Source: Halobacteriales archaeon YIM A00010 (lineage in GTDB: Archaea > Halobacteriota > Halobacteria > Halobacteriales > Haloarculaceae). Taken from it: a stretch of DNA of 64,000 nucleotides. A model generated the notes under the pieces. The model was not told where the DNA came from. It did not search any database and saw only the letters and a program-made list of their open reading frames with translations. Position 1 is the stretch's first letter. Each line of letters begins with the position of its first letter. The translations under genes were made by a program, and so were the position numbers. This document shows positions 21,618-52,229 of the stretch, one piece after another. The stretch is from contig JAKCFJ010000001.1 in the NCBI GenBank assembly GCA_025041175.1, positions 186,001 through 250,000 of the forward strand. Direction: 5' to 3'.

Positions 21618-22054
21618 TGTCGATCTACGCCGTCAAAACGACCGCAAGCCAGGAGCGAACCGTTGCGGACATGATCATGAACCGCGAGGAATCGTCGGTC
21701 CACGCGGCGCTCGCGCCCGACTCGCTCACGAGCTACGTGATGGTCGAAGCCGAGGAGGCGAGCGTGTTCGACCGGATTCTCGACGAGATCCCCCACGCCC
21801 GGGGGTTGGTCGAGGGCGAATCCTCGATCGTAGAGGTCGAACACTTCCTCTCGCCAAAGCCCGACGTCGAGGGGATCGCGGAAGGCGACATTGTGGAACT
21901 CATCGCCGGTCCGTTCAAAGGCGAGAAGGCACAGGTCCAGCGCATCGACGAAAGCAAAGACCAGGTCACCGTCGAGCTGTACGAGGCAACCGTTCCGATC
22001 CCGGTGACCGTCCGCGGCGACCAGATCCGCGTGCTCGACAGCGAGGATCGGTAG
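21617..22054 (+). CDS. spt5: Transcription elongation factor Spt5 (NusG)
   Basis: 145 residues. NGN domain at the N-terminus (SIYAVKTTASQERTVADMI) contacts the RNA polymerase clamp; the C-terminal KOW domain begins at EGDIVELIAGPFKGEKAQV near residue 93. With Spt4 it makes a processivity factor and couples transcription to translation. Overlaps secE by one base. Confidence 0.95.
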   Translation: MSIYAVKTTASQERTVADMIMNREESSVHAALAPDSLTSYVMVEAEEASVFDRILDEIPHARGLVEGESSIVEVEHFLSPKPDVEGIAEGDIVELIAGPFKGEKAQVQRIDESKDQVTVELYEATVPIPVTVRGDQIRVLDSEDR

Positions 22055-22124
22055 CGCTGGCGGTCGTTTTCCACCGTTCGGACGGAACGGCATCGTTATC
22101 AATCGACTGCGAGTATCCAGCATT

Positions 22125-22886
22125 GTGACGGGACTAGAGGATGGGGTTCGCATCGACATGCACGTGAAGATTCTAGACGAATCGGTTGTCGAGCGAGCGA
22201 AAGCACGCGGTCTCGACGCGCTCGTGTATGCGCCTCATTTCACTCGCTTCCCGACCGTTCGAGCGAAAGCGGAGGCGTTCTCCGATGAGACCCTCTCCGT
22301 CTTTCCCGCCCGAGAGATATTCACGGGGACGTGGCGTAACCGAAAGCACGTGCTTGCGGTCGGGTTGGAGGAGCCGGTTCCGGATTTCATCACGCTCTCG
22401 GGTGCGATGGCGGAACTCCACCGACAGGACGCGGCGATTTTGGCTCCTCACCCCGAATTTCTCAACGTCAGCCTCGACGCTGCGGACGTCCGTCGCTACG
22501 ACGTTCACGCCGTGGAGACGTACAACCCGAAACACTGGACCATCCACAACGAGCGCGCCCAAGCGATCGCTAGCGAGACTGAGCGTCCCGGGTTTGCCTC
22601 TTCGTACGCCCATCTCTCCGGAACGATCGGGGAAGCGTGGACCACGTTCGAGGAGCCGATCGACGACGTTGGAGATTTCACGGCCGCGCTAAAAGACCAT
22701 ACACCGCGGCGAACTCTCCACCGGTCGGGGTTCGAGCACAACGTCCGCTGTGGCGTGGAGTTCGGACACCTCATCTACGAGAACACGTGGGGCAAGATCG
22801 ATCGCACGTTTCTTTCGGGCACCGAACCAACTCACCCCGGACACATCGCCTACGAACGGCGATTCGAAGACGTTCGCGTCTACTGA
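22125..22886 (+). CDS. PHP-like metal-dependent hydrolase family protein
   Basis: 253 residues, GTG start. Metal-binding elements of the PHP type are scattered as expected: IDMHVK near residue 11, VYAPHFTRFP, LAPHPEFLNV near 110, VETYNPK and SSYAHLSGT. The first motif reads MHVK, with only one His where classical PHP domains have HxH, so activity may be altered. The C-terminus (GHLIYENTWGKIDRTFLSGTEPTHP) is strongly conserved in haloarchaeal members. Role unknown; RNA or nucleotide phosphatase activity is a family-level guess. Confidence 0.7.
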   Translation: MTGLEDGVRIDMHVKILDESVVERAKARGLDALVYAPHFTRFPTVRAKAEAFSDETLSVFPAREIFTGTWRNRKHVLAVGLEEPVPDFITLSGAMAELHRQDAAILAPHPEFLNVSLDAADVRRYDVHAVETYNPKHWTIHNERAQAIASETERPGFASSYAHLSGTIGEAWTTFEEPIDDVGDFTAALKDHTPRRTLHRSGFEHNVRCGVEFGHLIYENTWGKIDRTFLSGTEPTHPGHIAYERRFEDVRVY

Positions 22887-22915
22887 TCGTCGCCCCCCGC
22901 CTCGATTTGTCCCGA

Positions 22916-23392
22916 TCACTGCGCGAGTGGTGCCAGCGACCAACCGTACCGTCCGAATCCGTACACGATGGCGTACCCCACGAGTAGTTCGCTAGCGGTG
23001 ATGAACAGCGTGACGACGTTCGTGTACTGGCTTTTGGTTGCTACCCCGGTGGGGAATCCGTACTCCTGTGTGTACGGATAGAACAGCGCGATCCCCCGTT
23101 TGCTGCCGACCATATCCAGAACGTAGTGGGTGAGCACGCCGATCCAGACGTAGTTGAGGTTACCGAAGACGACCGGGAACGCGATGAACAGCCCCAGAAC
23201 CGGGAGGTTGTGGAGGGTTTTCCGGTGGCGACCGAACTCCGTGTCGATATCGGGGACCAGCGCCCCGAGGGTGACCGGCACCGCCACCGCGACGATCGTC
23301 TGGAGGGTTTCGACGTTCCCAATCGGTGCGAGGATGAACCCCACCCCCACACCGAGCAACAAACCGTTGAGCACGTGTCCGTGTTTGTTCAT
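22916..23392 (-). CDS. Membrane-bound metal-dependent hydrolase (YdjM-like)
   Basis: 158 residues from MNKHGHVLNGLLLGVG. About four hydrophobic spans carry the family's His/Asp motifs: NKHGHVLNG at the start, LVPDIDTEFGRHRKTLH near residue 47-63 and LTHYVLDMVGSKRG near 85. The family is annotated as inner-membrane metal-dependent hydrolase with unknown substrate. A longer in-frame start at 23437 would add an uncharacteristic N-terminus. Convergent with the PHP gene, 29 bases apart. Confidence 0.8.
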   Translation of the reverse strand: MNKHGHVLNGLLLGVGVGFILAPIGNVETLQTIVAVAVPVTLGALVPDIDTEFGRHRKTLHNLPVLGLFIAFPVVFGNLNYVWIGVLTHYVLDMVGSKRGIALFYPYTQEYGFPTGVATKSQYTNVVTLFITASELLVGYAIVYGFGRYGWSLAPLAQ

Positions 23393-23554
23393 AACTGATT
23401 GAATTTCGGAGCAGCGTAGAAACAGTTTCTGTTTCACTCCGATCCGGTCGGCCTACCGGCCTGCTCGTTCGCGTCGGGAGTCCGAGCCACTCGGTGAACC
23501 AGACGTACATTGTCGGTGAAATCCTCTTCGGAAAAGAGCTTGTACTGACTGGGC

Positions 23555-23737
23555 ATGTCAGCAGAGATGATGGTGGATTTTTTGGAAATACAGGATCGAT
23601 GCGAGCCCGCCGACTACGAGTATCACCCAGCTTCGTCCGACGTAGACGTGTTACTCGACCGGACGGAGGTGTTCGTTGAGAACATGGCTGACTTGCTCGA
23701 CGATGTGGAGGTGAACACGACGGACGCCGACCCATGA
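23555..23737 (+). CDS. Small acidic hypothetical protein
   Basis: 60 residues, MSAEMMVDFLEIQDRCEPADY, strongly acidic and helical, no cysteines beyond one, no TM. The third position is GC-biased and the acidic composition matches haloarchaeal coding DNA, which is the main support. A second ATG at 23567 is possible. No family recognised. Confidence 0.45.
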   Translation: MSAEMMVDFLEIQDRCEPADYEYHPASSDVDVLLDRTEVFVENMADLLDDVEVNTTDADP

Positions 23738-23806
23738 GCGACGTATCCTCTTACAGCAGATGTACACTCACGAAACGCTTTCTTCGTCCGTCTTCGTACC
23801 GTGGGT

Positions 23807-24013
23807 ATGGCAACGACCGTTAGGACACCCGAGACGGACGAGCAGTGTGCGTACTGTGGCTCGCGTATTTTCGATCACGATCCCGTCTGCGTGCGCGACT
23901 GTACCGACGACTGTGGCTCACCCACCTACTTCTGCAACTACGCGTGTCTGTCGGCGTACGTCGAGGAGAACGAGCTGGCTACGGGCGATACGTGCGAGTG
24001 GCGACCCGAATGA
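23807..24013 (+). CDS. 68-aa zinc-finger protein
   Basis: MATTVRTPETDEQCAYCGSR opens the protein. It contains CAYC, then VCVRDC, DDCG, FCNYAC, giving a treble-clef-like series of cysteines with FCNYACLSAYVEE as the second knuckle and helix. Similar small proteins are common in haloarchaea without known function. A GTG at 23801 could add two residues. Hairpin array A starts 55 bases after its stop. Confidence 0.7.
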   Translation: MATTVRTPETDEQCAYCGSRIFDHDPVCVRDCTDDCGSPTYFCNYACLSAYVEENELATGDTCEWRPE

Positions 24014-24068
24014 GGCGGTCACAGTGCCGTTTTGAGAGACGGCCGCTTCGTGCTGCGACTCGCTGTCA

Positions 24069-24257
24069 CCAGAAGCCGGAGGCTTCTGGCTGCTGACCAG
24101 ATGTCTCCGACATCTGGTGATGTCGTCGGGCTGCGACTGCTAACCGAGCTTCGCTCGGTGATGTCACCAGAACGCGAAGCGTTCTGGTTGCTAACCGGAA
24201 CTCTTCGAGTTCCGGTGATGTTGTCGGGTTACACCCGACTGCCCGAGACGCGTAGTG
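24069..24257. repeat. Hairpin array A: eight tandem short palindromes
   Basis: Units with 3-base loops: CCAGAAGCC/GGCTTCTGG (24069-24089), CCAGATGTC/GACATCTGG (24097-24117), a decayed GTCGGGC unit (about 24125-24137), CCGAGC/GCTCGG (24144-24158), CCAGAACGC/GCGTTCTGG (24167-24187), CCGGAACTC/GAGTTCCGG (24195-24215), GTCGGGT/ACCCGAC (24223-24239) and a mismatched GAGACGC/GTGCCTC (24241-24257 region). Linkers alternate between a CTGCTRA type and a TGATGTC type. Stem sequences differ yet remain complementary in six of eight. No protein-coding frame explains it. Array B at 33252-33496 is the same element reversed. Confidence 0.85.
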
Positions 24258-24269
24258 CCTCTCTGATCC

Positions 24270-24319
24270 TCCACTCGCTCCGCTCGCGGGGACGGGGGAC
24301 AAGTCGATCTACAGTCGTC
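24270..24319 (-). repeat. Degenerate tRNA-Tyr fragment with flank
   Basis: Bases 24291-24317 match the anticodon-arm part of tRNA-Tyr (28978-29003), including the GTA anticodon on the minus strand. The left flank (CCACTCGCTCCGCTCGCGG) resembles the sequence just beyond the real tRNA 3' end, but the T arm and acceptor are deleted. It marks an old attachment-site duplication. Confidence 0.6.
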
Positions 24320-24339
24320 TGTGAATCGCTAGAAGAACG

Positions 24340-24402
24340 AATCCGCTCTCCTCGATTTGAACGCGAGGACTTCGCTCCGCTCGTCCTCTGACTCAAATCG
24401 GG
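24340..24402. repeat. tRNA-Tyr 3'-end fragment plus palindrome (att remnant 1)
   Basis: Begins with the acceptor/T-arm sequence ATCCGCTCTC-CTCGATTTGA and then leaves the tRNA. An imperfect inverted repeat follows: CGATTTGA (24353-24360) with TCAAATCG (24393-24400), and inside it GAGGAC (24365-24370) with GTCCTC (24383-24388). A near-identical copy is at 26579-26640. It lies 65 bases before the integrase remnant at 24467. Confidence 0.65.
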
Positions 24403-24466
24403 GAAACGTCATCGTAATTTACCGCTACGATCGGTCTCTTCGACGTTTATTCCGATTCGGAGAACT

Positions 24467-24745
24467 ATGGCAAACGGATTAGAACTACTCTCGCCGGATG
24501 CGGCGAAGCAGATGTACCTCGATGCTCGAAGACACGAGGTATCGCAGGGAACGCTCGATGGATACCACTATTGCCTCAAGCATTTCATCCGATGGTGCGA
24601 CAGCGAGGGAATCGAGAATATGAATACCCATTGCCGCAAAGAATGCATCCGAGACTTTCGTGAGGAGCCGACGAGCCGATTGGAGCACTCAACCTGGTCA
24701 TCGATCAGGAGGTTTCGAACTGTGGTAAAGTGTCTTCTGACCTAG
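24467..24745 (+). pseudogene. Truncated tyrosine recombinase, N-terminal domain only (copy 1)
   Basis: The first ~53 codons (MANGLELLSPDAAKQMYLDA onward, to IENMN near 24625) match the SAM-like core-binding domain of haloarchaeal XerC/D-type integrases, including VSQGTLDGYHYCLKHFIRWC. After that the frame diverges into unrelated sequence, and no catalytic domain (Arg, His-x-x-Arg, Tyr) follows. The second remnant at 26738 has about 75 percent identical residues over the shared part by eye. A deletion fused this piece to other DNA; its last bases overlap the convergent propeller gene. Confidence 0.75.
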
Positions 24746-26292
24746 TCGCGCTTTCCCGTGCAGCGTCGCCAGCCAGCGAGTCCGAGTCCGAGGAGTGCAG
24801 CTGGCATCCCAAAGCCGGGGCCGTTGGCGGTAGTGGTTTCCTCGTCAGGTGCTGGTGTGTCGGTGGTAGTTGTGGACTCTGGGCGATCGCTCGACGATTG
24901 CATTGTGGACGGGGTTTCGTCACCATCCGGAGATGTGGTTGTCTCCGTTGATTTCTCAGGTGCTGTCTCGGTGGAGGTCGCCGTCGGCGTTGCTGTCTCG
25001 ATGGGAGTCGCCGTCTGTGTTGATTCGCCTTCGAGGACGATGAGATCCCGACCACCAAGAAACAGCTTTCCGGCGGCGACAGCCTCAAGCCGGTATCTGG
25101 TCATCGGCCTGGTTTCGATTTCGAACGACTGTTGGACCGTCCCTGTCGCCGGATCGATGATGGTGGCTCCGGCGTACAACAGCGAACCGACACGGGCGAT
25201 GATTCCTCGTGGGACCGACGTTGGCGGTCGTTCGTCTGGGGAGCCTTTGGGGAGCCTACTTCGCCACTGTTCGGAGCCATCGGTTCGATTGAGCGCAATG
25301 ATGTCGCTGACATTCTCGCCGCGAGCGTTCTTGAGATAGAGCCGTTTCGCGTCGATCGTCATTCCAGAGACGTAGCCGTTCTTCGAAAACGCCTGCTTCC
25401 ATTGCTGTGAACCACTCTCGGCGTCGAGAGCGATGACTGTCACTCCTGGGTCGATGCTTTCACTTACGTACACCGTTCCGTCGACGACGAGGCCCGTGTC
25501 GATGGTGGCTACGTTTGGAAGTGCTGACCAGACTTCCTCTCCGGTCCCTGCGTCGTATGCAACGACACCGTTCGATGGGGTAACGAACACCAGATCGTTT
25601 GCGACGAGTGGCTCGGTTGCGATCATGGGATCGTCACCGGGGATTTCTTGTCGCCACTTGACAGCACCGTCATCGGGCTGCAGACAGTAAATGTACGTTC
25701 CGTCACTCCCGTCGGTATCTGGCCCTTCGACGTACAGATTACCGTCTGCCACCGTCACCGAGGACAGTGCAGCGTCGACCGGAAAGTCGATCCGCCACTG
25801 TTTCTCCCCGTTGTCGGCATCGAGCGCGACGAGCGCGGTCTGTTCGTGATCGAATGCATCGAACACGCCGTAGTGGATCGGTGCATACACGGTTCCGTCG
25901 ACGACCGTCGGCGGCTCGACATCCGGTTCATCGCCTTCGTTTGTTGGCTCCGGTGGCGGTCCACCCGTGTAAGTCCAGCGCTCTGTCCCGTCTTCGATGT
26001 CGAACGCACCGAGGCGCTCACCAGTCGCGTAGACCGTGTCGCCGACGACCGCGCCCACCGCAACCCCGTTCCGCCACGCACTTACGCCACCGCTCCAGGC
26101 CTTTGAGAGCGCCCCGGTGGGGCCCACACCATCGATGGCGCTGTGTGTGTGGGCGTTATCTCCGCCTGGCTGTCTCCATGCAGCGTCGTTTGAATCGGCT
26201 CCGGCCGAGACCCCCGTCGCACCGAGCAACAGCCCGCCGCCTACCACACCAAGGAACTCCCGCCGAGTCTGCATTCTGTTTGCATCCGTCAT
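24742..26292 (-). CDS. Tat-exported PQQ-type beta-propeller protein with PGF-CTERM anchor (1)
   Basis: 516 residues. Tat motif RREFLGVVGGG near residues 10-20. Residues ~40-420 contain repeated propeller blades of the PQQ-repeat kind (DIEDGTERWTY, DADNGEKQWRI, DAGTGEEVWSA, DAESGSQQWKQ). A Thr/Ser/Pro-rich stalk (~430-485) leads to PGFGMPAALLGLGLAGWRR, the PGF-CTERM sorting signal cleaved by archaeosortase A with lipid attachment. Exported, surface-anchored protein; quinone binding is not implied, such propellers often bind proteins or glycans. It is a paralog of 27168-28796 and lies in the tRNA-Tyr island. Confidence 0.85.
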   Translation of the reverse strand: MTDANRMQTRREFLGVVGGGLLLGATGVSAGADSNDAAWRQPGGDNAHTHSAIDGVGPTGALSKAWSGGVSAWRNGVAVGAVVGDTVYATGERLGAFDIEDGTERWTYTGGPPPEPTNEGDEPDVEPPTVVDGTVYAPIHYGVFDAFDHEQTALVALDADNGEKQWRIDFPVDAALSSVTVADGNLYVEGPDTDGSDGTYIYCLQPDDGAVKWRQEIPGDDPMIATEPLVANDLVFVTPSNGVVAYDAGTGEEVWSALPNVATIDTGLVVDGTVYVSESIDPGVTVIALDAESGSQQWKQAFSKNGYVSGMTIDAKRLYLKNARGENVSDIIALNRTDGSEQWRSRLPKGSPDERPPTSVPRGIIARVGSLLYAGATIIDPATGTVQQSFEIETRPMTRYRLEAVAAGKLFLGGRDLIVLEGESTQTATPIETATPTATSTETAPEKSTETTTSPDGDETPSTMQSSSDRPESTTTTDTPAPDEETTTANGPGFGMPAALLGLGLAGWRRCTGKRD

Positions 26293-26578
26293 TTCCTGTT
26301 GATTTCTCCAACCCCATAATGTGTCTTCTGGCCTGCGTCCCGATCCACAGAATTTCGAATGCTACACCGTTGGGTGAAAATGTTGGTTGCGGAATCTTTT
26401 ATCAGGGCGTGAAAGGGCGAAAACTTCACTTCCTCCCGAGCCGACAGATAGCTCTTTCCGGCATTTGCAACGAGAAGTATCCGCTATCGATACGAGCCAG
26501 TGGAGGTGTCGACGACGGAAGGTGAAACCCAGATAGCACGCGCTTTGTTCATCCGCTTGCTCAAATCAAAGCCACAGA
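26293..26578. other. Intergenic stretch upstream of propeller gene 1
   Basis: Holds the promoter of the minus-strand propeller gene. The string TGTGTCTTCTGGCC near its start recurs upstream of propeller gene 2 (about 28825-28841), consistent with duplication of the whole unit. No gene seen. Confidence 0.45.
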
Positions 26579-26640
26579 AATCCGCTCTCCCCGATTTGAA
26601 CGCGAGGACTTCGCTTCGCTCGTCCTCTGGCTCAAATCGG
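26579..26640. repeat. tRNA-Tyr 3'-end fragment plus palindrome (att remnant 2)
   Basis: Near-identical to 24340-24402: the tRNA acceptor/T-arm sequence followed by the GAGGAC...GTCCTC and CGATTTGA...TCAAATCG inverted repeat. It marks the right end of the first integrase-propeller unit. The two copies are 2239 bases apart, in direct orientation. Confidence 0.65.
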
Positions 26641-26670
26641 ATCGATTGGATTTCTTGACCCCTCATCACG

Positions 26671-26736
26671 CTCGCTTCGCTCGCGGATTCGGAGACAAAG
26701 AAATCCGCTCTCCCCGATTTGAACGGGGGGCAAGTC
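26671..26736. repeat. 66-bp direct repeat, attachment-site copy
   Basis: Matches 28926-28991 at 64 of 66 positions by eye. The right 36 bases equal the 3' half of tRNA-Tyr from the acceptor to the anticodon stem; the left 30 bases equal the sequence downstream of the tRNA. Identity stops exactly at CAAGTC in the anticodon arm, the kind of boundary left by a tRNA-targeting integrase. The integrase remnant starts two bases later. Confidence 0.8.
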
Positions 26737-26737
26737 T

Positions 26738-27298
26738 ATGGAATTAACCGTAGTGGGTCCTGAGGTCGTCGATCCTCCGCGTTTCAGTGTGATGAAGAAA
26801 ACGAACGCGCTCGACCCAATCGATCCCAGTACAGCGAAGCAGATGTATCTCGACTCCCGGAGGCACGAAGTCTCCCAAGGGACCATAGACGGCTATCACT
26901 ATCGGCTCAAGCATTTCATCCGGTGGTGTGACACGGAGGGGATCAACAACATGAACGATCTCTCCGGCCGGGATCTCCATCAGTACAAGACATGGCACAG
27001 AGATGACGGCGATCTCACGCCGCTCTCACTCGGAAGTCAGCTCGATACACTCCGAATGTTCATCCGGTGGTGTGAGTCAATCGATGCAGTCGAAGAAAAG
27101 CTTCACAAGATAACCGATACGCCGATTCCGACGCTCATCAAATCACCTCTGGCACTTCGTGGACTGCTCAGCGGTCTCGGCTTCGCAACCAGCTTCCGAC
27201 ACCGATCCCGGCGGCTCCAGCAAGCACACCGAAGCCTGGACCGGTTGTGGCGGTGGAGTCGTCATCACTGCTGGACTCCTGTGGTGTCGAGCCGTTAG
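26738..27298 (+). pseudogene. Truncated tyrosine recombinase, N-terminal domain only (copy 2)
   Basis: An ATG directly abuts the att copy; the family-like start is the ATG at 26792 (MKKTNALDPIDPSTAKQMYL). Core-binding domain residues continue through GYHYRLKHFIRWCDTEG, GRDLHQYKTWHRDDGDL and LRMFIRWCESIDAVEEKL to about 27110. Beyond that the frame reads backwards through the 3' end of the propeller gene, so the catalytic domain is missing. Longer than the 24467 remnant but equally inactive. Confidence 0.78.
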
Positions 27299-28796
27299 TT
27301 GTGCCGGATGGATTGTCTGCAGTGTCCGCCGTCTCTGACGGCGCACTCGGTTCTGCCTGTTGGGTCGTCGTTGCGGTGGATCCCCTATCATCGGTTACAG
27401 TCGTCGAATCTTCACTCTCGTCGGCTTCGGTCTGTGTGTCAGTCGTTGGTGGCGATGCGGTCTGTGTGTCGGTCGTCGGTGGTGATGCGGTCTGGGTTTC
27501 CGATCCCTTCACAACTAGTAGCCCTTCGCCACCGAAGTACAGCTGTCCCCCAGCAACCGCATTGAGTCGATACGGGGCCGTCCACGGCCCTTCGATCCCG
27601 TACTCGGACCGAATTGATCCATCGGATGGATCGAGGACGAATCCACCGGCGTACAACAGAGAGCCGACCCGTGCCATCCCCCACGCTGGATCCGGTCTCC
27701 CCGTCTGTGGTTCGGTATCTGACTCCTCTGGCCACGTCGTAACGGATGTCTGCCAATTTTCCGTGCCGTCAGTTCGATCGAGTGCGATGATGGCTGCATC
27801 GCTCTGTCCCTTCGCAATGTACACCTGTTCTGCGTCCACGGTTGCTACCCGAATTCTGATGCGTTCCCCGTCGTAGGACTGCTTCCACTGTTGTTCGCCC
27901 GTGGAGGCGTCGAGCACGATGATCGTCGCACCCGGTGTACTCTCCTCGCTCACGAACAGAGTCCCATCAGCAACCATCGCCACGTGGGGTGCTTTCACGC
28001 GAGGGAGCGCCTTCCAGAGGCGATCACCATTCTCCACGTCGAGCGCGACGACACCGTTTCGCTCGGCGACGTACAGACGACCGCTTTCGATGGCTGGCGT
28101 GTTCGACTCAGCCCGGCCAATATCGACCGACTGGCGCCAGCCTATCGTGCCGTCGGACGGGTTCAACTGGTAGATGTACCTGGTGTCACTGCCGTCCAGA
28201 TCGGGACCACAGACATAGCACATTCCGTCTGATATCCTCACGTGTGAGAACTCGATTACGCTCGGGGTCCCGATCTCCCAGAGCTTCTCGCCGCTCTCTG
28301 CGTCGACACCCATCAGTTTCGCGTACTCAGCCCCATCTCCATCCCAGACACCGATGCGCACCGGTGCAACGACAACCCCGTCCACGTACGTTGGCCGTTC
28401 GATATCTATCGCTGCGCCGTCTGGATAGTCGATGTCGGGGACCGATGTCTGAGCACTCCATAGTGTTGTTCCATCAACCGCGTTCTTGGCGACTAGAACG
28501 GTCCCAGACGCATACACCGTGCCGTCGACGACCGCGCCGACACGAGTATCACCGAAATAGGCACTAAGACCACCTTGCCAGGCCGTTGAGAGTTTCCCTG
28601 CAGGTCCCGTTGCGGATATCTGTGCGTTGGTCCCCGCTGCGTTCGCGCCGGGCTGTGTCCAGGTTTCATCACCCGACTGTGTAGACATACCCCCGGTGAT
28701 ACCCACCCCTGCAGTGGTGATTACTCCGGCTGTCACTAGTCCGGCGACACCTGAGAAAAACGTCCGACGAGAGAACTCATTGGTTCTGTTGTCCAT
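27168..28796 (-). CDS. Tat-exported PQQ-type beta-propeller protein with PGF-CTERM anchor (2)
   Basis: 542 residues. Tat motif SRRTFFSGVAG near residue 9-19. Propeller blades repeat as in its paralog (NAVDGTTLWSA, DAESGEKLWEI, DVENGDRLWKA, DASTGEQQWKQ, DRTDGTENWQT). A Thr/Ser-rich stalk with a duplicated TASPPTTDTQ motif precedes GPGFGVLAGAAGIGVGSWLR, the PGF-CTERM tripartite signal. The gene ends inside the integrase remnant on the other strand. The second unit of the tandem island, directly adjacent to the intact tRNA-Tyr. Confidence 0.85.
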   Translation of the reverse strand: MDNRTNEFSRRTFFSGVAGLVTAGVITTAGVGITGGMSTQSGDETWTQPGANAAGTNAQISATGPAGKLSTAWQGGLSAYFGDTRVGAVVDGTVYASGTVLVAKNAVDGTTLWSAQTSVPDIDYPDGAAIDIERPTYVDGVVVAPVRIGVWDGDGAEYAKLMGVDAESGEKLWEIGTPSVIEFSHVRISDGMCYVCGPDLDGSDTRYIYQLNPSDGTIGWRQSVDIGRAESNTPAIESGRLYVAERNGVVALDVENGDRLWKALPRVKAPHVAMVADGTLFVSEESTPGATIIVLDASTGEQQWKQSYDGERIRIRVATVDAEQVYIAKGQSDAAIIALDRTDGTENWQTSVTTWPEESDTEPQTGRPDPAWGMARVGSLLYAGGFVLDPSDGSIRSEYGIEGPWTAPYRLNAVAGGQLYFGGEGLLVVKGSETQTASPPTTDTQTASPPTTDTQTEADESEDSTTVTDDRGSTATTTQQAEPSAPSETADTADNPSGTTNGSTPQESSSDDDSTATTGPGFGVLAGAAGIGVGSWLRSRDR

Positions 28797-28925
28797 CTAT
28801 GGCAACCATATCAGTTCTCCTGACATGTGTCTTCTGGCCCAGTGTACGTGGCAGTTCGAATCTCATAAGATGGTCCCGGGATGCTCTCTTCGCTGGTGTC
28901 CCGGGTGCGACTCGCTGATTCCCCA
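28797..28925. other. Spacer between propeller gene 2 and the att repeat
   Basis: Promoter region of the minus-strand propeller gene. Carries ATGTGTCTTCTGGCCC, also found upstream of propeller gene 1. No coding sequence recognised. Confidence 0.4.
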
Positions 28926-28991
28926 CTCGCTTCGCTCACGGATTCGGAGACAAAGACATCCGCTCTCCCCGATTTGAACGGGGGGCAAGTC
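28926..28991. repeat. 66-bp direct repeat containing the tRNA-Tyr 3' half
   Basis: Partner of 26671-26736 (two mismatches). Spans the tRNA 3' half plus ~33 bases downstream of it. With the left copy it delimits a 2255-bp repeat-to-repeat unit holding integrase remnant 2 and propeller gene 2. Confidence 0.8.
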
Positions 28992-29032
28992 GATCTACAG
29001 TCGACTGCTCTGCCAGACTGAGCTAAGAGCGG
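28959..29032 (-). tRNA. tRNA-Tyr (GTA)
   Basis: 74 bases. Acceptor CCGCTCT/AGAGCGG with discriminator A, D stem GCTC/GAGC, anticodon stem GTCGA/TCGAC with loop CTGTAGA (anticodon GTA), T stem CCCCG/CGGGG with loop TTCAAAT. The C1-G72 pair is the archaeal tyrosine identity. No intron, no encoded CCA. A TTAAA box about 30 bases upstream on the minus strand (near 29062) can serve as promoter. Its 3' half is the target of the island integrations. Confidence 0.96.
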
Positions 29033-29172
29033 TCACTCTTTCGTATGCCCATTCTCCATTTAACGCTTTCTGTTCCGACCGAAACCACCCGACACTCGCG
29101 GTGTCTCGTACACCTGATAGATGTCTGACGCTGGCACGAACGTTGATATGGATTGGCAACCAACAGCCATTG

Positions 29173-29724
29173 ATGAGTAAGATCACGTTTCGCGCTGACG
29201 ACGAGTTGATCGCGCAACTGGAGGAGTTCGAGGCCTCCAAGAGCGCGATCATGCGCGAAGCGCTTCGCACCTATCTCAACACTCATATGAGCGGCTCCGG
29301 ACCAGCCAAGAGCCACCCGACAGTGGAGTTCGAGGACGAACGCTGGGTGGACCACGTGGTTCGAGAACGCGTCGAGGAACTCGTCGGAGAAGGCGACAGC
29401 GCGTTTACACGGCCAGAACCCAAGGATATCAACGTAAATATCTCTGTAGAGGGTGAACCACAGACGACAGTCACCGAGGACTCCTCGTCCTCCGATCAGT
29501 GTAAGACGCGTGCTTCGAATACAGGGGACACCGGGACGGAACAAACCCAGTGTGCTCAATGCGGGGAAACACACGCGGAATCACACGTGTACTGCCCCAA
29601 CTGCGGAGAAAAATCGGTTCAACAGGTCGCCTGCGAATGTGGTGCCGAAATCGATACCGAATGGTCGTTTTGCCCGGCGTGTGGCCGCCGTACCCCGGCT
29701 GAGTCCGATCTCGATCGGTCGTAG
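29173..29724 (+). CDS. cdrL: Ribbon-helix-helix double-zinc-ribbon regulator, CdrL-like
   Basis: 183 residues. The N-terminus MSKITFRADDELIAQLEEFE is a ribbon-helix-helix DNA-binding domain (strand plus SKSAIMREALRTYL helix). A linker of ~85 residues follows, then two zinc ribbons: CAQCGETH...YCPNCGEK (near 119-141) and CECGAEIDTEWSFCPACGRR. In haloarchaea this long RHH protein (cell division regulator, long) lies next to cdrS-ftsZ2 and acts on that promoter. The ATG at 29173 is chosen because the RHH strand begins there. Confidence 0.85.
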   Translation: MSKITFRADDELIAQLEEFEASKSAIMREALRTYLNTHMSGSGPAKSHPTVEFEDERWVDHVVRERVEELVGEGDSAFTRPEPKDINVNISVEGEPQTTVTEDSSSSDQCKTRASNTGDTGTEQTQCAQCGETHAESHVYCPNCGEKSVQQVACECGAEIDTEWSFCPACGRRTPAESDLDRS

Positions 29725-29865
29725 CCGATGATGCCACGCGGTAAGCGATCGTATACGCCAAAAACCCCCGCGACACGCTCTGAACGAGTCATTTATGGAA
29801 TAGAATCCATCCGTGTCATACATGGGGCAAAGATTTATTACACCGGCGATAATCAACACACCTGC

Positions 29866-29970
29866 GTAAGACGACCGTCTTACATGGTGTCGCGTTCGTG
29901 GTAATACGGCCGCACTCGTGCGGTTTCGCTGTGTAAGACGCGGGGCGGACCACCGCCCATCTCGTCTTAC
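29866..29970 (+). promoter_or_regulatory. Inverted-repeat cluster in the cdrS-ftsZ2 control region
   Basis: GTAAGAC/GTCTTAC with a 4-base centre (29866-29883); CCGCAC/GTGCGG (29910-29923); and GTAAGACG (29933-29940) with CGTCTTAC (29963-29970) enclosing GGGCGG/CCGCCC (29943-29948/29953-29958). The 8-mer GTAAGACG or its complement thus occurs four times. A TATA-like ATTTATTA lies near 29832. They may be operators for the RHH regulators or a folded 5' leader of the cdrS message. Confidence 0.6.
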
Positions 29971-29987
29971 CGGAAAAGGGGAAAACC

Positions 29988-30167
29988 ATGGAGCGTGTGA
30001 CACTACGGATTCCAAAACAACAGGTCGAAGCAGTCGAGCAACTGGTCGAGACGGGTGAGTTTCCCAACCGGAGTGAAGCGATTCGATCGGCTGTTCGTGA
30101 GATGATCAACGAAGAGAACACAGAGCGTCAGCGGCGGGAGAGCAAGCGTCAGTGGGCGCGTGTCTGA
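29988..30167 (+). CDS. cdrS: Ribbon-helix-helix regulator CdrS
   Basis: 59 residues, [20 protein letters not shown]. One ribbon-helix-helix domain: beta strand RVTLRIP, helix [12 protein letters not shown], turn FPNRSE and helix [13 protein letters not shown], then a basic tail. In Halobacterium and Haloferax the short RHH protein is a cell-division regulator co-transcribed with ftsZ2. The stop is 2 bases before the ftsZ2 ATG, so the two are one operon. Confidence 0.92.
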
Positions 30168-30169
30168 CG

Positions 30170-31333
30170 ATGCAAGAACTCGTCAACGACGCGCTCGAAC
30201 ACGCTGAAGACGAAGAGCGCCAAGCGGCTGACGCGGAGGACATCGACGAGTTTGGTGATCCTCGTATCGTGGTCGTTGGCGCTGGCGGTGCTGGGAACAA
30301 CACTGTCAACCGACTCTACAACATCGGCGTCGACGGCGCTGATACGGTTGCGATCAACACGGACAAACAGCACCTTCAGATGATCGAAGCCGACACGAAG
30401 GTGCTCGTCGGGAAGACGCTCACCCAGGGTCTCGGTGCCGGTGGCGATCCCGCGATGGGGGAGCGAGCGACCGAAATGGCCCGTGGGACGATCAAAGACG
30501 TGCTGTCGGGCGCTGATCTCGTGTTCGTTACGGCTGGCATGGGTGGCGGAACGGGCACGGGTGCGGCGCCCGTCATCTCGAAGATCGCAAAGGAGTTGGG
30601 TGCGATCGTTGTCGGCATGGTGTCGACCCCGTTCAACGTCGAACGGGCGCGAACCGTGAAAGCCGAGGAAGGGCTCGAACAGCTCCGCAACGAGGCGGAT
30701 TCGATCATCGTTCTGGACAACAATCGATTGCTCGATTACGTCCCGAACCTTCCGATCGGCAAGGCGTTCTCGGTGATGGATCAGATCATCGCCGAAACGG
30801 TCAAGGGTATTTCCGAGACGATCACCCAACCGTCGCTCATCAATCTCGATTACGCGGATATGACCGCCATCATGGGGCAAGGCGGCGTCGCGGTCATGCT
30901 CGTGGGCGAGACCCAGGACAAGAACAAAACCGATGAAGTCGTTCGGGATGCGATGAGCCATCCCCTCCTTGATGTCGACTACCGAGGGGCGACCGGGGGG
31001 TTGGTCCACATCACCGGTGGTCCCGACCTCACGCTCAAGGAGGCCGAAGGGATCGCCCAACAGATCACCGAACGACTCGAAGCCGACGCGAACGTCATCT
31101 GGGGTGCCCGGATCCAACAGGAGTACAAGGGTAAAGTCCGCGTGATGGCGATCATGACGGGGGTACAGAGCGCACAGATTCTCGGCCCAACTACACAAAA
31201 GCAGGCAGACGCCTCCCGCCGTGCGGCACTCGACCGAGTGGACACCGACTCGGAGTCCAACTACGGTAGCGCACAGTCCGACGGCGGACAGGATTCTGTC
31301 GAGACCAACAACGGTCTCGATGTCATTAGATGA
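30170..31333 (+). CDS. ftsZ2: Cell division protein FtsZ2
   Basis: 387-residue tubulin-superfamily GTPase. GTP-binding [13 protein letters not shown] near residue 41, INTDKQHL, signature [10 protein letters not shown] near 125, and [13 protein letters not shown] for the T7 loop. N-terminus [16 protein letters not shown] and the conserved [20 protein letters not shown]-terminal part identify the FtsZ2 branch, the constriction motor in Haloferax. The ATG at 30170 is preferred to an in-frame GTG at 30152 that lies inside cdrS. Only 9 kb from ftsZ1 here. Confidence 0.96.
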
Positions 31334-31465
31334 GTGATGAACTAACTGACCGACGAGGCTATCGCTTACGGAATTAATTTTCGATATGTCCTGGATATAT
31401 ACTATGTATTATTTATTACCATCGTATATCACTGGACAGTTGAGCGAGCGTCGGTGATTCACTCG

Positions 31466-32455
31466 CTACGTCGCGTGGATCGATTCGACGAGCTGGCATT
31501 TTCGACAGAGTCGGTTCGTCGTCGCCGCGCCACACCGTTCGCAGTCGGTGGCGTCGGATGGTGATCCTTGTCGGTACTGTTCGGCGGCGATGCCAGCGAG
31601 ATCCTCGTACCCGGCCATGATCGAGTGGCGTGTGCCCGGGTGGTTCTCCTCGAGTTCGAGGAGGAGGCGCTGGATCTCACCGCGGTAGGCCTCGCTCGCG
31701 TGCGGGCATTCGGCCATATGAACGGGGAGTTCCTTGAGGTGTGCAAACAGCGCGACCTCCTTTTCCGGGACGTCCCGAAGCGGTTTCGCGCGCGGGACGA
31801 ACGCATCGGATTCGGTGCGCGTTTGCCGGTCGTCGCCGCCTGTGTGCTCGAACGGCCCGAGGCTAGCGTCGAAGTGCTTTGCGATCTGTTCGACGTCGCC
31901 TTCGAGGACGTTCATGAGCGCTGTTTGGGCCTCGTCGTCGAGGTTGTGGCCGGTAAGCAGCTTATCCGCCCCGAATTCGTCCGCGTATCGGGAGAGGACG
32001 TCCCGGCGGAAAACGCCACAGTACGCACACGGGGCCATGTTCTCCGGGTCGCTTTCGGCCACGTCGTCCATCTCGAGGTCGAACTCTTCCTCGTAGGCGA
32101 CGACCTCGTGTCGGATGCCCATCTCTTCGGTCAGCTCGAGACAGGCGTCGACGGAGGCGTCCCGGTATCCTTCGATTCCCTCGTGGATCGTGAGTGCGAC
32201 CAGTTCGATCCGGGGATCCTTGGCGAACGTATCATACAGGAGGTGTGTGAGAACGACGCTGTCTTTCCCGCCCGAGAGACCGATCACCCACGTCTCGGGA
32301 TCGTCGGGCGAGATGTTCTCGCCGATGAGTGCGTCCTCTCGGATCCGCCGTCTGACGCGCTTTTCGACCGAGCGAAAGAAATGACGCTCACAGAGATGCA
32401 GCCCGGAGTACTCGGCGTGTAGCACCGCCGGATCTCCGCATTTGTCACACTCCAT
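31466..32455 (-). CDS. ncsA: tRNA 2-thiolation enzyme NcsA (Ncs6/TtuA family)
   Basis: 329 residues. N-terminal zinc ribbon MECDKCGDP...LCERHF, ATP-binding P-loop GLSGGKDSVVL near residue 60, catalytic CAYCGVFRRDVL near 143, TGHNLDDEAQT, and C-terminal zinc ribbon CERCGAATTNRLCRKC. It adenylates and thiolates U34 of Lys/Glu/Gln tRNAs using a SAMP ubiquitin-like sulfur carrier in Haloferax. Convergent with ftsZ2, the same neighbourhood as in H. volcanii. Confidence 0.94.
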   Translation of the reverse strand: MECDKCGDPAVLHAEYSGLHLCERHFFRSVEKRVRRRIREDALIGENISPDDPETWVIGLSGGKDSVVLTHLLYDTFAKDPRIELVALTIHEGIEGYRDASVDACLELTEEMGIRHEVVAYEEEFDLEMDDVAESDPENMAPCAYCGVFRRDVLSRYADEFGADKLLTGHNLDDEAQTALMNVLEGDVEQIAKHFDASLGPFEHTGGDDRQTRTESDAFVPRAKPLRDVPEKEVALFAHLKELPVHMAECPHASEAYRGEIQRLLLELEENHPGTRHSIMAGYEDLAGIAAEQYRQGSPSDATDCERCGAATTNRLCRKCQLVESIHAT

Positions 32456-33251: not shown

Positions 33252-33496
33252 GAGGCGCTACGTGCCTCAAGCAGCGAGGAACAACGTTCCTCGGGCAACC
33301 GGCCTACGGCCGGTGACAGTCGGGCTGCGCCCGACGACATCACCAGATGCGGAGCATCTGGTTAGCAGCCAGACTCTACGAGTCTGGCGACATTCACGAG
33401 AGCTATGCTCTCGTGAGTCAACCAGATTCCGATGGAATCTGGTGACATCGCCAAAACCGAAGTTTTGGCTAGCAGCCAGAAGCCGAAGGCTTCTGG
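33252..33496. repeat. Hairpin array B: ten tandem short palindromes
   Basis: Stems: GAGGCGC/GTGCCTC, GAGGAAC/GTTCCTC, CCGGCC/GGCCGG, GTCGGGC/GCCCGAC, CCAGATGC/GCATCTGG, CCAGACTC/GAGTCTGG, CACGAGAGC/GCTCTCGTG, CCAGATTCC/GGAATCTGG, CCAAAAC/GTTTTGG and CCAGAAGCC/GGCTTCTGG. Nine have 3-base loops, one has four. All are fully complementary except one G-T pair in the first. Linkers of 5-8 bases alternate between GACATCA-like and TTAGCAG-like. Read on the minus strand, the order starts and ends with the same hairpins as array A. It ends 43 bases before the gene at 33540. Confidence 0.88.
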
Positions 33497-33539
33497 CGAC
33501 AGCGAGCGGTTTTTCCACGTCGGGGGTGTACGACGGCGT

Positions 33540-51528: not shown

Positions 51529-52086
51529 TCAGTCGTCGGTGGTGGGTTCAGCGGCAGCCGCACCGACGACGCGCGCCAGCTCGGGGTGATGCTGCCGTAA
51601 TCCAGCGATATCGTCGCGCTGGCGATACTGACAGTACTCTACGAGCGTGTCGACCAGACAGGCCGGGGCACTCTCCGTATCCGGTTTGTCCGTGATATCG
51701 GCCGGCTCGCGTGCGTCGTCGGGGGTGAACACGGACTGGACCACGTCGCCATCGCGCTGTTCGTGAAATCTGACGCACGCGCCGTTGTCGAACCAGCATT
51801 CCACGATCATCTCACCAGTGGCGCAGTAGCGCGTGAACCGCGCAATGCCGGGCAACTCGTCGTACCCCCCCGCTCGTGGCGTTCCGAGGCCAGCGGTCGC
51901 CAGTATCTGCTCGATCTGGGTGGCGTGTGCGCACCCGGTGGACTGGCAGGGTCTACACCACAGCCCTTCCCCGACATCGATGCTGTGGTACAACTCCGTC
52001 GTCACGATCTCATCCCGATCCTCGATGGCCGAGAGGTTCACGACCTCACCCTGCTGATTCCGGAACTGAAATAGTGGCAACGTCAT
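51529..52086 (-). CDS. Cys/His-rich conserved protein, partner of the zinc microprotein (copy 2)
   Basis: 185 residues from MTLPLFQFRNQQGEV. Paralog of 1314-1880: same CRPCQSTGCAH metal site, ELPGIARFTRY, CWFDNGACVRFHEQRDGDV and ACLVDTLVEYCQYRQRDDI. Differences cluster in the N-terminal 35 residues and the last 10. Start ATG overlaps the zinc-microprotein stop exactly as in copy 1. Function unknown. Confidence 0.8.
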   Translation of the reverse strand: MTLPLFQFRNQQGEVVNLSAIEDRDEIVTTELYHSIDVGEGLWCRPCQSTGCAHATQIEQILATAGLGTPRAGGYDELPGIARFTRYCATGEMIVECWFDNGACVRFHEQRDGDVVQSVFTPDDAREPADITDKPDTESAPACLVDTLVEYCQYRQRDDIAGLRQHHPELARVVGAAAAEPTTDD

Positions 52087-52229
52087 CGCCACCACCGCCC
52101 CAACGGACACCCCATCCGGTGTTCGAGGCGCGTACGAACCGGCCGGCCACACACCGGGCAGCGCGTTCTCTGGTTGTCTTTCTGATACGATGCGACACCG
52201 TTACATGCCTCTGATTCGTTCCCTGTCAT
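52083..52229 (-). CDS. 48-aa zinc-finger protein (copy 2)
   Basis: MTGNESEACNGVASYQKDNQ opens the protein, which ends HRMGCPLGRWWR. Zinc residues Cys24, Cys27, His37 and Cys41 match copy 1 position by position; Cys9 is also shared, while Cys21 of copy 1 is Arg here. Its TGA overlaps the downstream ATG. Too short for routine gene finders but identical in length to copy 1, with the structured leader ending 17 bases before its start. Confidence 0.8.
   Translation of the reverse strand: MTGNESEACNGVASYQKDNQRTRCPVCGRPVRTRLEHRMGCPLGRWWR

Follow-up and report, generated by a model that had tools for sequence, protein, structure and literature searches.

A hairpin array in a haloarchaeal genome is probably a pile-up of a small two-hairpin mobile element

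Results

Main finding

Array A, a row of short palindromes in Halobacteriales archaeon YIM A00010, is probably a tandem set of four copies of a mobile, non-autonomous element; each copy, about 53 bp long, is made of two hairpins and flanked by a YG repeat, and two of the copies have partly decayed. The window, i.e., the whole stretch of DNA analysed, is 64,000 nt long (contig JAKCFJ010000001.1, positions 186,001 to 250,000). Sequence comparison showed that the pair of hairpins is the unit, that it inserts cleanly and sits beside or inside earlier pairs, that its stems covary and that its loops outpace both stems and flanks.

Structure and surroundings of array A

Eight hairpins were found within 193 bases (window 24069-24261), six perfect and two decayed. 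The number of hairpins and the 3-nt loops agreed with the initial annotation, but the arms, then given as 6-9 bp, measured 7-10 bp in the six perfect hairpins. As read from the sequence, H3 had lost GCCC from one arm and H8 carried one mismatch and one G.T, and both were therefore counted as decayed. The outer bases CCAGA/TCTGG, earlier called often constant, were present in H1, H2 and H5 but in none of the other hairpins. As first reported, the linkers alternated between two types, TGCTA inside pairs and GATGTC between pairs, so that array A resolves into four tandem pairs of hairpins. The features are listed below, with strand where one was assigned.

24064-24068: left boundary TG-TCA, with one TG copy flanking array A (GACTCGC-TG-TCA), from the sequence and the look-alike in genome G004
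24069-24089: H1, pair 1, CCAGAAGCC gga GGCTTCTGG
24096-24118: H2, pair 1, ACCAGATGTC tcc GACATCTGGT
24119-24124: between-pair linker GATGTC (GA-TG-TC by the TG duplication rule)
24125-24137: H3, pair 2, decayed GTCGGGCTGCGAC, for which relatives have the intact sequence GTCGGGCtgcGCCCGAC; array B contains the intact form
24143-24159: H4, pair 2, ACCGAGC ttc GCTCGGT
24160-24165: between-pair linker GATGTC
24166-24188: H5, pair 3, ACCAGAACGC gaa GCGTTCTGGT, a stem found across Halobacteria
24194-24216: H6, pair 3, ACCGGAACTC ttc GAGTTCCGGT
24217-24222: between-pair linker GATGTT
24223-24239: H7, pair 4, GTCGGGT tac ACCCGAC
24245-24261: H8, pair 4, decayed GAGACGC gta GTGCCTC
24262-24270: right boundary in the context TCTG-ATCC, TG being the matching flank copy
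33275-33497: array B, a row of nine hairpins like those of array A, in opposite orientation
51880-52033, minus strand: site in a multi-copy gene, empty here but holding a hairpin pair in other paralogues of the genome (L008_658 compared with window 52033)

The folding energy of array A was far lower than that of shuffled sequences, both as RNA (z -8.0) and as DNA (z -8.0), and runs of at least three such hairpins numbered zero in 400 kb of Markov control sequence. A scan of window 22000-32000 with the Rfam 15 covariance models returned only a tRNA at 28959-29032 and no family match. Array A was not convincingly coding, as had been stated before. A CRISPR reading, already set aside in the initial annotation, was rejected because the hairpins vary and the linkers are short and constant, whereas a CRISPR has a constant repeat and unique spacers; a terminator reading was rejected on structure.

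Array A lies between a small zinc-finger-like gene (start 23807) and an integrase-like fragment (24467-24745). Beside this fragment, a stretch on the minus strand (24292-24400) resembles the 3' part of a tRNA (GTTCAAATC). Similar repeats are present in both G003 and G004, and the stretch may be what is left of the attachment site at which an element had integrated. One integrase-like N-terminal domain occurs in two truncated copies (26738-27298 and 24467-24745) that adjoin genes at 24742-26292 and 27168-28796 for two related PQQ-like-repeat proteins, an arrangement that points to duplication in tandem.

A dispersed family of hairpin pairs

The pair, of about 53 bp, had the layout T(C/T)-hp1-linker-hp2-(G)A, with linkers of 4-7 nt, 3-nt loops and a flanking 2-nt direct repeat, YG. 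When array A was searched by BLAST against its own whole genome, 45 matches were obtained; at the 20 places whose sequence was retrieved, a small repertoire of stems was combined in differing order into arrays or pairs. A two-hairpin covariance model gave 122 matches in the same genome, including pair 3 itself (G000:C1:210162-210219, E 4.5e-15), and 6-48 in each of six other Halocatena genomes, both strands being counted throughout. The pair was thus present in 7/7 Halocatena genomes (G003 is Halocatena salina).

In a sample of the phylum, 26 of the 28 genomes positive with the covariance model came from the same order (Halobacteriales); the other two (G431 and G438, same phylum, other order) had weak matches, with E about 3e-5 to 5e-5. 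The stem CCAGAACGCnnnGCGTTCTGG was found in pairs of Halorubrum, Halolamina, Halorientalis, Natrialba, Haloferax and others, and the pair occurred in many haloarchaeal families. The locus collection was seeded with one stem (CCAGAACGC), and many counts come from related copies. Matches from named bacteria were single hairpins. In plasmid records, pairs were mostly outside listed genes; phage records gave no match, and no pairs were found in Haloquadratum plasmid PL47. The stem words CCAGAACGC/GCGTTCTGG were not found among the haloarchaeal papers listed by a search of open-access literature; an earlier description elsewhere is possible. In G025, a 6-hairpin array was contained in a non-coding repeat of about 290 bp present in several copies (L206 982-1258, L207 798-1082), so that copying of an entire array as part of a larger repeat is also possible.

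Two further kinds of array were observed. A second, related pair family had symmetric ends CAC..GTG, the linker AGGCCT and a GGC/GCC repeat (L142 7108, L085 1244), and adjoined TnpB-coding DNA. Other stem words and longer linkers were seen at L066 12680-12774 (CGTCAGAC, GCAAAGC) and L298 2158-2254 (CGAAACGGC, GCGGAGG), which perhaps form another related family.

Empty and filled sites

Judged from the DNA compared, the pair is mobile. Flanking sequences were joined and searched among the haloarchaeal loci, and many unoccupied sites were found. At one TnpB site there were 20 distinct empty homologues (like GGTGGGACGTTGAACGG) versus 9 filled by a pair; the filled ones carried a clean insertion, of 55 bp in 8/9, the 2-nt duplication included. 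A further empty and filled TnpB example was found at GGCGT/CAAC (L085, L025).

A multi-copy gene had the hairpin pair in several of its paralogues in the same genome and lacked it in others, among them window 51880-52033. The left flanks of the filled copies had diverged from each other about as much as from the empty copies, while three of the pairs were identical, which suggests independent insertions at one site; conversion is an alternative. The multi-copy protein family at window 51529-52152 (minus strand, EGLWCRPCQSTG ... CWFDNGACVRFHEQRDGDVVQSVFTPDDAREPADI) has many paralogues in this genome, several with the hairpin pair at the same codon.

For array A itself, orthologous arrays were sought in congeners with protein and DNA. 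The neighbouring gene was present in G001 and G004, and no array followed that of G004. A look-alike of the flanks without an array was found in G004, GACTCGCTG-ATCC (GACTCGC-TG-ATCC), 87% identical over 105 bp on the right side and with about 9 matching bases on the left, and is suggestive of an empty version of the array A site. A search for an empty version of the IS605-end site GATTCACGCC gave nothing clear, so the pair may be a fixed part there.

Target repeat and landing sites

The left flanks of pairs read YGT and the right flanks AYG. The two YG were coupled in 97 of 103 informative cases, from copies that are partly related to each other (87 C/C, 10 T/T and 6 discordant, P=3e-9). Because a left TGT goes with a right ATG and not with ACA, YG is a direct repeat and not an inverted tag. 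In such flanks, a 2-nt duplication cannot be told apart from recombination at a matching core dinucleotide. At L113, the linker of one pair was split by another pair and TG was duplicated, so arrays look as if insertions had piled up, each landing beside or within an earlier one. The hairpins do stand in a row, as the term tandem array had implied, but as accumulated insertions and not as one functional array.

The haloarchaeal loci, 577 kb in all, contained 87 arrays; 24 of these lay inside TnpB-coding DNA, which made up 4.7% of the sequence, 11 further arrays were at most 600 bp from TnpB, and 45 had no TnpB in the locus. This bias may reflect tolerance rather than targeting.

The coupled repeat bears on the reading that pairs belong to REPs or PATEs of archaea and that their mover is a HUH (Y1) transposase of the IS200/IS605 type, which would recognise hairpins in single-stranded DNA. 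The two subterminal hairpins and the IS605 contexts would suit such an enzyme, as would GNA loops (described below), which favour single-stranded DNA. Y1_Tnp genes were found in G000, G003, G004 and G005, which had more pairs on average than the genomes without them. However, G001, G002 and G006 had 6-19 matches despite lacking Y1_Tnp (PF01797), and target duplication is not a feature of IS605-type elements or PATEs (PMC3119063). A plain HUH mechanism is disfavoured by the 2-nt duplication, and this reading is unlikely.

Evolution of stems and loops

Both arms had been said to change together from unit to unit, and paired changes were indeed observed between homologous insertions (L092 versus L097 and L142; TCAGAACGC..GCGTTCTGA versus CCAGAACGC..GCGTTCTGG). 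In 18 aligned pairs of equal length, both members changed in 16 of 20 base pairs, and the covariation score was 0.62 versus 0.22 after shuffling; these pairs were chosen as perfect palindromes, which inflates the pairing. When the search was relaxed to at most 4 mismatches per stem, 965 cells were conserved, 50 were changed-and-paired and 29 were unpaired; the stems came mostly from one IS605-end context, and two L115 rows that are probably spurious raise the unpaired count. The comparison of stems for paired substitutions returned unpaired intermediates as well (T.G in L260 and L270 beside T-A in L246, L247 and L257), indicating that stems are not strictly corrected. The paired variation still requires arm-to-arm copying, selection for folding or both, as originally argued.

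At one homologous site, divergence was 16.6% in flanks, 5.7% in stems and 62% in loops. The loop was closed by a C-G pair in 498 of 510 family hairpins, compared with 581 of 1671 in the background. GNA/TNC loops accounted for 333 of 510 family hairpins (65%) versus 186 of 1671 background hairpins (11%, P=3e-125). The motif d(C-GNA-G), as in GCGAAGC, is an extraordinarily stable DNA mini-hairpin. This class of mini-hairpin is described in PMC10527192. In our reading, extruded DNA hairpins, or possibly RNA, were subject to selection or to a mutational bias that produced this loop bias. GNA loops were carried by either strand (105 versus 100), and a strand preference pointing to a single transferred strand was therefore rejected.

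At the homologous site with the divergence values given above, whole stem types were swapped (CCAGAACGC versus CCAGAAATC, AACGC versus AAATC), with a second case in L048 versus L008. These swaps would be consistent with a scheme without a dedicated enzyme, in which replication template switching through 2-3 nt of microhomology copies pairs and fold-back synthesis makes the arms complementary; microhomology fits the short YG repeats, and C-GNA-G is a good fold-back nucleus. However, the length, termini and linker of the unit are too uniform for this scheme and the same site was used repeatedly, making it rather doubtful. Least probable is that the hairpins are kept as RNA, i.e., as transcribed structures that stabilise or process transcripts and covary under RNA selection, for although RNA folding is strong, stems covary and most plasmid copies are outside listed genes, pairs are found in either orientation, also within genes, and in arbitrary order in arrays, have no Rfam match and no strand bias of GNA loops, and leave abundant empty sites.

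Discussion

Relation to known repeats

Array A had been described as unlike REP sequences, a view that did not hold, for its basic unit is a mobile, dispersed hairpin pair working much like a REP dimer. CGTC-tagged REPs, including Neisseria dRS3 and Rickettsia RPE-4/RPE-6, have been reported from bacteria only and have no known dedicated transposase (Di Nocera, De Gregorio and Rocco 2013, PMC3733652). They resemble the pairs in being short, transposase-free hairpins with an outer CGTC/TGTC motif (here CGTC or TGTC/TGTT before hp1 in most pairs, and TGTC/TGTT in array A). They also mostly form head-to-head dimers with tags outside and often two different hairpins, as here a pair with unlike stems is the unit, and have some clusters and some copies inside genes or other palindromes. 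However, their stems are 8-9 bp with A/T in the first two pairs, whereas stems here are 7-10 bp and start with ACC, GCC, CCAG, ACGAG or GTCGG. Their loops are 4-5 nt, compared with loops here that are mostly 3 nt although 3-5 were allowed, and C-GNA-G biased; in place of an unpaired tail CCA there are inner linkers TGCTA, TGGCA, TGTGCGA and TGCC. Finally, their hosts are bacterial, and in the haloarchaeal pairs the outer motif resolves into the 2-nt target repeat plus TC.

The small mobile repeats SMR-A of Haloquadratum are about 110 bp, transposase-free and mobilised in an unexplained way (Dyall-Smith et al. 2011, PMC3119063). They share with the pairs a haloarchaeal host, the lack of a transposase and inverted ends (here TCAC..GTGA). 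SMR-A strongly prefer IS605-type elements, with their palindromes, and PATEs; of the 87 arrays here, 24 were inside TnpB-coding DNA, 11 were within 600 bp of it and 45 had no TnpB in the locus. However, SMR-A make no target duplication, whereas a pair of about 53 bp (55-bp insertion) has two hairpins and a 2-nt duplication. PATEs are palindrome-associated transposable elements derived from IS605 ends, without target duplication and some only 52 bp long (PMC3119063). Near-terminal palindromes, the 52-bp size of some and the IS605 link recall the pairs, but a 52-bp PATE keeps one 22-bp palindrome, whereas a pair has two different hairpins and the coupled YG repeat (P=3e-9). REPINs/BIMEs with RAYT (PMC3116915) likewise replicate as a hairpin doublet and form mosaic arrays; they differ in the GTAG tag, absent here (flanks YGT, AYG), while the pairs have different stems in the two palindromes and 3-nt loops, and the Y1 transposase (PF01797) is missing in carriers G001, G002 and G006. 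Since the pair lacks some defining features of CGTC-REPs, of SMR-A and of PATEs, our best call is that it represents REP-like miniature mobile palindromes in a new form, particular to haloarchaea and outside these three families.

Possible mechanism

No transposase or autonomous partner of the pair was found. We propose that hairpins extruded from the DNA are the form in which the pair moves or is recognised, and that extrusion would keep the arms complementary and favour C-GNA-G loops. Arm-to-arm template switching would then spread changes and swap stem types. A putative trans-acting enzyme would join the pair to YG dinucleotides, preferring IS605/TnpB elements and sites adjoining earlier copies; a DDE enzyme that makes a 2-nt repeat would fit, as would a recombinase of the IS607 or IS110 type that relies on matching core dinucleotides. 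A bolder version, offered tentatively, is a class-wide archaeal element defined by folded DNA and not by sequence, with both arms rewritten together by arm-to-arm copying, 3-nt tips re-made at each move, and insertion at YG by a putative enzyme; the re-making of tips would account for loops that are hypervariable yet C-GNA-G.

Significance

What moves the CGTC-REPs (2013) and the "enigmatic" SMR-A (2011) becomes a testable question in genetically tractable archaea, because haloarchaeal pairs have empty sites that are clean and a 2-nt target repeat that can be measured. The pairs further suggest a reading of the CGTC tag in bacterial REPs, which may likewise consist of TC preceded by a 2-nt target repeat. 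Frozen stems against hypervariable loops, together with the C-GNA-G bias, would serve as a natural archive of how hairpins are extruded from DNA in vivo.
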